DNA of 64,000 nucleotides from Algisphaera agarilytica (GTDB lineage Bacteria > Planctomycetota > Phycisphaerae > Phycisphaerales > Phycisphaeraceae): positions 3,106,836 to 3,170,835 of the forward strand of contig NZ_JACHGY010000001.1 in NCBI RefSeq assembly GCF_014207595.1, in the 5' to 3' direction. Positions 41,962 to 45,241 of the stretch are shown here, one piece after another. How positions within the stretch are numbered: the stretch's first letter is position 1; each line of letters begins with the position of its first letter. The notes below the pieces were generated by a model. The model was not told where the DNA came from. It saw only the letters and a list, made by a program, of their open reading frames with translations, and did not search any database. The translations under genes and the position numbers were made by a program.

Positions 41962-42054
41962 GATGAAAAGTCTTCGGTGCCCGGCGGTTTGCAGATCGCG
42001 GTGCCGGTGCATGTCGCAAGTATCGATCGAGATGCTTTCTGGGAGGTCGTTGGA

Positions 42055-43392
42055 TTGAATAACCCACTTCGAATCACGTCAGCTGTTTTAATTGGTGCTT
42101 TGTCCTTAGGTGCAACCGCCCAAGGGATCGACGTCGATGCGGTGTTTACCACGATCGACCAGCGCGTGACCGCCATGGCTGCTGAAGCCACCGCCGCCTC
42201 GGCGGGCAGTTCCACGATGTACCCCAACTCGTACATCGCGGGTGATTCTGGTTGGACCCACCGCGAAGTCGGCGGATGGACCACCGGTTTCTACCCCGGC
42301 ATCTTGTGGAAGATGTACGAGCAGACCGGCAAGAGTGAATACAAAACACAGGCCGAGTCGTGGACCATGGCGCTCATCGGGCTCGAGTCCGACGACGCGG
42401 TGACGCAGACCTACCTTGATGCGTTCAACTTCCGCCCGTCCGATCACGACATCGGCTTCGTCTTCAACACCGCGTTCGGCAACGCGTACCGGATCACCGG
42501 CGAAGAGCGTTACAAAGCGGTCCTCAACGAAGCCGCCGAGCGCCTCGACAACCGATTCGACCCGAGCTACCAGGCGATCAAGTCCTGGGACTGGGGCACG
42601 TGGAACGAGGTGGTGATCATCGACAATATGATCAACCTCGAATTGTTGTGGGACGTCGCGGCGGAGGGCGGGCCGTCGAGCTACGCCGACCACGCACTGG
42701 CCCACGCCCAGACCACGGCCGAGTACCACGTCCGCAACGACGGCACGACCTATCACACCGTCGAGTTCGGCTTCCCCACGCCCCAGGCGGGCACCTACCA
42801 GGGCTACGAAGACGAATCGACCTGGGCCCGCGGGCAGGCTTGGGGGATCTACGGCTTCACGATGGCCTACCGCGAAGCGATCTCGGCTTCGGTCAGTACG
42901 TCGGAGGCCGACGCCTTACTCGACATCGCCACCGATTTGGCGGATTACTTCCTCGCCAACCTGCCCGATGACAACGTGCCGTTCTGGGATTTTGAGCTCT
43001 TTCTCGGCGACCCCGATCTGTTTGATAAGGACACCTCCGCCGCGGCCATCACCGCCTCGGCCCTGATCGAGTTGTCGCAGCTGGTCGACGACCCCGACGA
43101 AGAGCAGCGGTACTTCGAAGCCGCTGAAGACATCCTCGAAGCGTTGCTTTCGGCGACGTATTTCGCCGCCGACGCCACCGGCGAATCGCGTCTGCTGCTG
43201 CACGGCGTCGGCGCCCACCCCGACGCGGTCGCCAACGGACAATACGACGACGAGACGCTGATCTACGGCGAGTACTACCTGATCGAAGCGCTGCAGCGTT
43301 ACCAGGCGGTGCCCGAACCCGCGGGTTTGCTGACGCTCGGGCTGGTCGTTCCCGTGCTGATGCGTCGGCGTGTCGCGCCAACTTCACTCTAG
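42055..43392 (+). CDS. GH88-type unsaturated glucuronyl hydrolase with PEP-CTERM signal
   Basis: 445 aa from TTG 42055 (ribosome site GGGAGG at 42041-42046). A signal peptide (ITSAVLIGALSLGATAQG) predicts export. The alpha/alpha-barrel of GH88/105 is recognised from WTTGFYPGILW, RPSDHDIGFVF (first catalytic Asp region), IIDNMINLELLW (second Asp region) and RGQAWGIYGF. Such enzymes clip the 4,5-unsaturated uronic acid left by polysaccharide lyases. The C-terminus VPEPAGLLTLGLVVPVLMRRR is a PEP-CTERM sorting signal (VPEP, helix, Arg cluster). That implies processing by an exosortase encoded elsewhere. Confidence 0.85.
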   Translation: MNNPLRITSAVLIGALSLGATAQGIDVDAVFTTIDQRVTAMAAEATAASAGSSTMYPNSYIAGDSGWTHREVGGWTTGFYPGILWKMYEQTGKSEYKTQAESWTMALIGLESDDAVTQTYLDAFNFRPSDHDIGFVFNTAFGNAYRITGEERYKAVLNEAAERLDNRFDPSYQAIKSWDWGTWNEVVIIDNMINLELLWDVAAEGGPSSYADHALAHAQTTAEYHVRNDGTTYHTVEFGFPTPQAGTYQGYEDESTWARGQAWGIYGFTMAYREAISASVSTSEADALLDIATDLADYFLANLPDDNVPFWDFELFLGDPDLFDKDTSAAAITASALIELSQLVDDPDEEQRYFEAAEDILEALLSATYFAADATGESRLLLHGVGAHPDAVANGQYDDETLIYGEYYLIEALQRYQAVPEPAGLLTLGLVVPVLMRRRVAPTSL

Positions 43393-43417
43393 ACACCAAG
43401 ACCCCGATCGATATACT
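43390..43417 (+). promoter_or_regulatory. Promoter of the cimA leader
   Basis: TAGACA (5 of 6), 16 nt, TATACT (5 of 6). The expected transcription start falls at about 43424, on the ATG of the leader peptide, so the leader would be translated from a leaderless message. Confidence 0.55.
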
Positions 43418-43423
43418 CACCGC

Positions 43424-43486
43424 ATGAGCTTTGCCGCCCCACAGTCCGAGATTACGATTTCGATTATCGAGGACAACCTCCGGTAG
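43424..43486 (+). CDS. Isoleucine-rich attenuator leader peptide for cimA
   Basis: 20 codons encoding MSFAAPQSEITISIIEDNLR. Ile occupies four of six consecutive positions (ATT-ACG-ATT-TCG-ATT-ATC, 43451-43468). There is no ribosome site; the ATG lies 6 nt after a TATACT box. The stop codon (43484-43486) sits inside the 5' arm of a predicted antiterminator that pairs with the first arm of the terminator at 43522. This is the design of classical amino-acid leader peptides such as ilvL and leuL. Too short for routine gene finders; existence is inferred from structure. Confidence 0.65.
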   Translation: MSFAAPQSEITISIIEDNLR

Positions 43487-43545
43487 GGCGGCTGATCGTG
43501 CATCCACATGAATCGAACCGACCCTGCCGATGGCAGGGTTTTTTT
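43481..43545 (+). promoter_or_regulatory. Transcription attenuator upstream of cimA
   Basis: Terminator: CCCTGCC (43522-43528), loop GAT, GGCAGGG (43532-43538), then seven T. Antiterminator: CGGTAGGG (43481-43488) can pair with CCCTGCCG (43522-43529), 8 bp including one U-G. A ribosome at the leader stop would cover CGGTAGGG and let the terminator form; one stalled at the Ile codons would leave it free to pair and allow readthrough into cimA. Confidence 0.65.
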
Positions 43546-43603
43546 ATGCCCCGAATCCGTATCTGATACCCTGTTCGCCCCTCGCCGCCCCTTGGAAACC
43601 CCC

Positions 43604-45241
<1,638 letters not shown>

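Follow-up and report, generated by a model that had tools for sequence, protein, structure and literature searches.

The cimA leader region of Algisphaera agarilytica

The cimA gene of Algisphaera agarilytica lies in a 64-kb stretch of contig NZ_JACHGY010000001.1, which is called the window here. Its upstream region is made up as follows (window coordinates):

41977-43392, + strand, GH88-family gene (PF07470, 42 bits), on the same strand as cimA
43390-43417, + strand, sigma-70-like promoter TAGACA-16-TATACT (-35 box TAGACA 43390-43395, -10 box TATACT 43412-43417)
43424-43486, + strand, leader ORF of 20 codons, MSFAAPQSEITISIIEDNLR and stop, probably leaderless (direct reading and ORF scan)
43451-43468, + strand, control codons Ile 10, 12, 14 and 15, ATT ATT ATT ATC (direct reading)
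43481-43488, + strand, antiterminator 5' arm CGGTAGGG with the stop codon inside, pairing with 43522-43529
43489-43520, + strand, upper part of the antiterminator hairpin, CGG.TGATCGTG ... CATG.ATCG..CCG in the window (fold)
43522-43529, + strand, shared arm CCCTGCCG, i.e., the antiterminator 3' arm, of which bases 43522-43528 also lie within the terminator 5' arm
43521-43545, + strand, intrinsic terminator, stem 43521-43528/43532-43539, T7 43539-43545
43604-45241, + strand, cimA, (R)-citramalate synthase, the putatively regulated gene (TIGR00977, 603 bits against a cutoff of 450; HMGL-like and LeuA_dimer domains)

Citramalate synthase opens the pyruvate route to isoleucine, and cimA is assigned to the start of this route because of its TIGR00977 match and LeuA_dimer domain. 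The initial annotation had placed promoter, leader ORF, arm, terminator and cimA at these same positions and had read them as an isoleucine-responsive attenuator; direct reading together with scanners reproduced all of the coordinates, including the four isoleucines in codons 10-15 of the leader. The arm at the stop codon is complementary over 8 bp to the first arm of the terminator, with one G-U pair, and the terminator has the 7-bp stem and T7 described, to which an A-T closing pair can be added, with the start of cimA 58 nt beyond the T-run. A second in-frame ATG upstream of the cimA start, at 43508, could lead gene callers astray; it overlaps with the terminator region.

A scan of 1 kb gave no sigma-70-like site other than this promoter (1 found against 0.1 expected); 6 nt separate its -10 box from the leader ATG. 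A single terminator-like site was found in the same 1 kb, which on its own is not significant because 0.7 such sites are expected per kb. The fold of the leader RNA beats all but one of 200 shuffles (z -3.96). The protein of the upstream GH88-family gene had no NCBIfam match at E 0.001, and its tail may be a sorting signal.

Distribution among relatives

We searched 61 genomes (the organism's own and 60 relatives), found cimA in 39 of them and read the upstream DNA of all 39. Twenty-nine of these 39 genomes of the order have the full element before cimA, a mini-ORF with Ile codons and then a terminator (24/33 in the window's family, 5/5 in a second family and 0/1 in a third). All 29 leaders have 15-25 codons with 2-6 isoleucines, the start having been chosen by hand in eight (L004, L016, L020, L022, L023, L026, L030 and L031). 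The element is absent from L002, L010, L025, L027, L028, L029, L033, L035, L038 and L039, where L028 was scored as absent on account of the 403 nt between its hairpin and cimA and L038 has only 313 nt of contig before the DTTLRDG motif. Absence from close relatives, which the initial annotation had named among the results that would refute an attenuator, does occur in the sole genome of the same genus with cimA (L002, genome G002), whose ileS is also without an Ile leader. In a tree of cimA (30 of the loci and one outgroup) the pattern of presence needs six changes (5-6 on bootstrapping, at least 4 forced by well-supported branches), and the absences are not clustered (500/500 shuffles as low); the tree gives no direction of change. 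As two families carry the element and the absences are scattered, we infer an ancestral element which was lost several times, and the tree allows, without proving, such a loss in G002. Upstream of cimA at L029 (G034) the -10 box, the ATG and CCGGTAGGCAGG are kept while the Ile codons and the terminator are gone; this looks like a decaying attenuator copy.

Conservation and covariation of the two helices

Alignment of the 29 sequences (A1) showed that 98.7% of cells in the terminator stem are paired, as against 38-63% when the pairing is slid, and that four of its eight pairs have two-sided changes. For the antiterminator helix the corresponding figures are 85.4% against 28-48% and three of nine pairs. 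A further alignment (A3), from which L006, L019, L022, L032 and L037 were left out, supplied none of the counts. Against shuffled alignments the covariation score of the antiterminator was reached by 0/500 and its percentage paired by 2/500; two measures did not stand out, the number of two-sided pairs being reached by 57/500 and the pair types by 125/500. The slid control and the individual cases weigh more here because the shuffles ignore relatedness. In L008 and L012 the terminator stem is CCCTACC/GGTAGGG instead of CCCTGCC/GGCAGGG, by which the G-U of the antiterminator becomes A-U; in L019 and L022, whose stop codon is placed further upstream, GGCAGGG takes the place of GGTAGGG in the arm; in L032 the arms are GGGGCTGG/CCAGCCCC. 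The pairs of the terminator thus covary, and the antiterminator arm remains complementary where the sequences differ. Over the 29 sequences the whole antiterminator hairpin has a mean z of -3.09 ± 0.20 (SEM), with 0.10 in the worst case (L037). The segment between the arms forms an upper stem whose sequence differs among the relatives, and this inner stem has a mean z of -1.16 ± 0.15 (SEM; -1.05 in the window). The alignment proposed with the initial annotation, in which Ile run, stop-overlapping arm, terminator and compensating changes were to be compared, thus gave the expected picture in 29 of 39 genomes.

The hairpin could also be a mere terminator of the GH88-family gene, with the mini-ORF there by chance; that gene has the same orientation, with 128 nt between its end and the hairpin, and the expectation of 0.7 terminator-like sites per kb makes a hairpin of this kind unsurprising. 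Among the element-bearing relatives, however, the upstream gene is on the opposite strand in eight of 29 (same strand in 4, unclear in 17, by a crude longest-open-frame measure), so that in those eight there is no upstream gene to terminate, and leader, Ile codons and stop-codon arm are conserved along with the hairpin. We give this explanation almost no credence.

Geometry and folding

The longest complement to the 5' arm of the terminator is centred at most 12 nt from the leader stop codon in 28/29 elements, and the distance from the last Ile codon to the stop is 12-24 nt (median 18) in all 29. Compared with shuffles the antiterminator duplex has a median z of -3.17, and 25/29 are below -1.5; the four cimA elements above this value are L005, L018, L036 and L037. 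Folding was modelled after removal of the RNA that a ribosome would cover. With the ribosome at the last Ile codon and arm 4 not yet made, the antiterminator forms in 28/29; at full length, with the ribosome in the same place, it forms in 18/29 and the terminator in 10/29. With the ribosome at the stop codon the terminator forms in 29/29. In the model, these states with a ribosome fit an antiterminator that excludes the terminator, is released when a ribosome stalls at the Ile codons and is masked when one stands at the stop codon. The full-length RNA free of ribosomes favours the terminator in 15/29 and the antiterminator in 13/29, so that neither outcome prevails. Pairing of a protecting 1:2 hairpin, which would give termination when the leader is not translated, is weak (mean z -1.34 ± 0.20 SEM, 29 elements). 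The leaders also prefer an Ile codon which cimA itself mostly avoids, ATT making up 80/140 of the Ile codons in the leaders against 44/446 in the cimA coding sequences of 19 of these genomes.

Start of the leader

A -10 box with at least 4/6 matches ends 6-10 nt before the leader start in 24/29 elements, as against 3% of ATGs in 2.0 Mb of the genome, and one with at least 5/6 matches is found 5-10 nt upstream in 22/29 (background about 0.4% of ATGs in the same 2.0 Mb). No -10 box was found at 5-10 nt from the chosen start in L016, L018, L020, L030 and L037. A Shine-Dalgarno-like word is present in 3/5 of the leaders lacking the box and in 1/24 of the others; 10-12% of all ATGs have one. Because their start falls 6-10 nt after a -10 box, most leaders (24/29) look leaderless, so that the comparison agrees with the leaderless start proposed in the initial annotation. 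As a correction to it, the arrangement is not unique, leaderless leaders of attenuators being known in Corynebacterium and Streptomyces according to the available excerpts of PMC11857589 and PMC8079986.

Evidence of coding from codon changes is thin: the L008 and L012 leaders differ in four codons, three of them synonymously. Ten Gimesia-like leaders, found by a pattern that demands a run of four Ile, were compared in pairs over 15 codons; the 87 synonymous and 119 non-synonymous differences between them do not decide the matter. Their Ile run is ATT four times in 10/10.

Genome scans and other leaders in the same genome

The leader scan covered 2.0 of the 4.17 Mb of the genome and 272 terminator-like hairpins, and called mini-ORFs with an amino-acid bias score of at least 1.5 and a -10-like box. 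It returned nine hits, only one of which has a 5/6 box 5-11 nt upstream, a leader with 12 Thr before thrS; no clear leader besides this one was found in the 2.0 Mb scanned. The weak matches (Lys, Gly, Leu, Met) scored at most 4.9, had no 5/6 -10 box at a distance of 5-11 nt and were taken as noise. Within the 64-kb window the cimA leader is the single match (score 2.8). The same scan gave no hits when run on the reversed sequence (138 hairpins); since reversal and complementation yield one and the same pair of strands, these two controls are counted as one. The first scan had been stricter on bias (cut-off 4.0) and did not require a -10 box; it missed the cimA leader and returned five ORFs in 2.0 Mb, four without a -10 box. 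By amino-acid bias alone the cimA leader is unexceptional; what is exceptional is the combination of features together with their conservation. A plasmid search gave one 86-base match only.

A covariance model (R1) built from the element recognised, in the window's genome, cimA at 74.6 bits (part of the model) and a second site at 68.2 bits (outside the model), which lies before ileS; a leader before thrS scored 30 bits. These two leaders are:

G000:C1:2089023-2089142 (L077 = G000:C1:2087500-2097000, match at 1524-1643), ileS leader MANALRPDPRIIIGIPNLR (ileS by TIGR00392, 840 bits)
G000:C1:1662555-1662677 (L078 = G000:C1:1655000-1664500), minus strand, thrS leader MLVTTTTTTTTTTTTRPPAIG, 12 consecutive Thr and a terminator (thrS by TIGR00418, 630 bits)

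The cimA and ileS leaders of this genome have in common the Ile codons, the ending NLR-stop and the arms. In the set of 61 genomes ileS is found in 60, and 12 of 30 upstreams read have a leader with three or more Ile together with a terminator; the same-genus ileS upstream has no Ile leader. With thrS, present in 55/61 genomes, 30 loci were fetched, four of which could not be anchored and two more of which had less than 230 nt upstream; Thr leaders were found in 9 of the 26 anchored upstreams and hold 7-14 Thr and a terminator. The antiterminator of the genome's own thrS leader is not significant against shuffles (z -0.03). Since Ile codons precede ileS and a Thr run precedes thrS in one and the same genome, the amino acid of the leader matches the gene.

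This correspondence bears on two other explanations. According to the first, the leader RNA would bind a ligand or tRNA, as a riboswitch or T-box does, and the ORF would have no role of its own. The long antiterminator hairpin would be compatible with this, and ileS and thrS are moreover T-box targets in Firmicutes. A translational T-box at ileS of several Actinobacteria, described in the excerpt of PMC1262725, points the same way. A scan of the 64-kb window at the Rfam gathering score, however, gave two tRNAs and no T-box or other Rfam element, conservation tracks the reading frame, and the amino acid switches with the gene (Ile for cimA and ileS, Thr for thrS) as the arms change, so we consider this explanation to have a very slight probability. 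According to the other, the leader would act through arrest by the nascent peptide or through what happens at the stop codon, and not through stalling at the Ile codons on starvation; with the stop codon inside the arm the rate of release there would also matter. Against this, the leader peptides are alike in little but Ile density and size, and the similarly laid-out thrS leaders are Thr runs. We hold this explanation to be very improbable.

Leaders elsewhere in the phylum

In 392 genomes of the phylum R1 gave, under stricter filters, 13 matches above 60 bits in nine genomes, all of them in the order's two element-bearing families. Phylum-wide matches of about 30 bits or less, many of which are terminators alone, were counted as evidence only after inspection by eye. 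Leaders whose arms differ in sequence were found upstream of leuA (Leu codons), upstream of a cimA-valS pair (Ile and Val codons) and, in other families, upstream of cimA. Matches to cimA are present in 165/392 genomes, and 30 loci, 24 of them from another family (f32), were examined. Ile leaders with other arms precede 23 of these 30, a count made with a loose detector (at least 3 Ile, up to 40 codons, without negative control or shuffles) and in which many cases are close relatives and not independent; in 21 of the 23 the segment that best complements the terminator arm has its centre at most 12 nt from the stop codon. Two of the seven loci missed by the detector (G377 and G257) have leaders with imperfect stems by eye. 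In the Gimesia-like loci the stop codon lies within the arm TGACTTGAGG, and this arm pairs with the CCTCAGGT side of the stem. The label of the one locus titled Gemmataceae (L269) is doubtful, as its closest matches (69%) are members of family f32, and nothing rests on it.

At L084, L088 and L093, in another family, a mixed Ile/Val leader precedes cimA and then a valS-like gene, the leader matching both (valS identity was confirmed by NCBIfam for L084 only). Leu-rich leaders with terminators precede leuA in other planctomycetes (L082, L086, L089 and L094), where the antiterminators are not significant. Thirty-six of 38 such other leaders were scored, the detector having found no terminator in two; their arm duplexes have a median z of -1.77, with 21/36 below -1.5, and average -15.6 kcal/mol, whereas exchanging arms from one gene group to another gives -11.0 kcal/mol. 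None of four thrS leaders of the window's family and four leuA leaders is below z -1.5. In a separate survey of 80 loci the same loose detector was positive in 17, some of them (L313, L317) probably by chance.

Outside the planctomycetes, Ile-rich mini-ORFs precede cimA in L311 and L313 (Syntrophus-titled and Desulfobacteraceae MAGs), both with a strong hairpin, CCGTTATCAGG or CCGCTATCAGG with CCTGGTAGCGG. The stop-codon segment CCTGAT of L311 pairs with ATCAGG; no such pairing was found in L313.

Discussion

The attenuator interpretation put forward in the initial annotation is supported by these comparisons, and we consider it very probable that the cimA leader is a ribosome-mediated transcription attenuator sensing charged tRNA-Ile. 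By analogy, a result on the attenuator-like ilvB leader of Streptomyces coelicolor speaks against it: there, replacement of the candidate codons left regulation unaffected (PMC1262725, excerpt). From the anatomy, its conservation and the compensating changes, all of which were observed, we infer translation of the leader, its start site and a response to isoleucine. Transcription would start at, or a few bases from, the leader ATG, where ribosomes would begin without the aid of a Shine-Dalgarno site. As long as isoleucine suffices, the ribosome would reach the stop codon and cover CGGTAGGG, upon which CCCTGCC would pair with GGCAGGG and transcription would end at the T-run. With isoleucine short, the ribosome would stall at Ile codons 10-15 with its 3' edge just before CGGTAGGG, which would then be free to form the long antiterminator hairpin with CCCTGCCG, and cimA would be transcribed.

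Ribosome-mediated attenuation is a textbook mechanism. The enterobacterial ilv, thr and leu leaders, which have a ribosome-binding site and a four-region RNA, are alike in that stalling at the control codons frees the antiterminator arm and a ribosome at the stop codon allows the terminator; in the planctomycete cimA element, by contrast, region 1 is weak and the leaders appear for the most part to be leaderless. The ilvBNC attenuator of Corynebacterium glutamicum, as far as the excerpt of PMC11857589 goes, likewise controls branched-chain synthesis through a short leader peptide with branched-chain codons, has its transcript start one nucleotide from the leader start codon, and comprises a terminator, an antiterminator and a third hairpin. 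It belongs to another phylum and another gene, and its leader MTIIRLVVVTARRLP has mixed Ile/Val/Leu codons, whereas the planctomycete leader is Ile-dominated and its antiterminator arm is built on the stop codon. Leaderless leader ORFs are described before leuS, leuA, trpE, trpS, ilvBHC and thrS of Streptomyces lividans, including a Thr leader before thrS; the latter has two Thr and no clear terminator, unlike the 7-14 Thr and terminator in planctomycetes, and the available part of that report names neither a cimA nor an ileS leader (PMC8079986). The uORF attenuator motif at cysS of Rhodobacterales is similar in that a small ORF which carries control codons in tandem lies upstream of a gene for an aminoacyl-tRNA synthetase, and differs in its Cys codons and its alphaproteobacterial hosts (PMC8632094, excerpt). 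As of 2010 leader-peptide systems were said to be demonstrated in no groups other than Proteobacteria and Actinobacteria, apart from a single new case in bacilli (PMC2965389, excerpt), and leader-like ORFs of Actinobacteria do not always prove to be attenuators (PMC1262725, excerpt). Among the matches listed in the open-access literature, titles and the beginnings of abstracts mentioned no attenuator in Planctomycetes or before cimA. The mechanism is known, and it is the phylum and the target genes cimA and ileS that appear to be new.

Taking the other leaders together, we lean towards the view that Planctomycetota use a phylum-wide set of attenuators, with Ile leaders for cimA and ileS, Ile/Val for cimA-valS, Thr for thrS and Leu for leuA, the stop codon lying in or beside the antiterminator arm for cimA and most ileS. 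The cimA attenuator and its ileS counterpart would add one phylum and two target genes (cimA and ileS) to leader-peptide attenuation, and Planctomycetota would have a readable set of probably leaderless ORFs; one planctomycete genome has been placed among those with few Shine-Dalgarno genes (PMC5397173, excerpt). The attenuator would also point to a way in which isoleucine synthesis by the citramalate route may be controlled, with elements that are short and can be tested in reporters. Spatially separate transcription and translation in Gemmata is a claim cited in the excerpts of PMC6212462 and PMC5394234, while the data reported here come from planctomycetes other than Gemmata. Because the switch works only with a ribosome following the polymerase, a phylum-wide set would, if true, be genomic evidence for transcription-translation coupling in a group where such separation has been claimed, and a working attenuator would make coupling in Planctomycetota directly testable.
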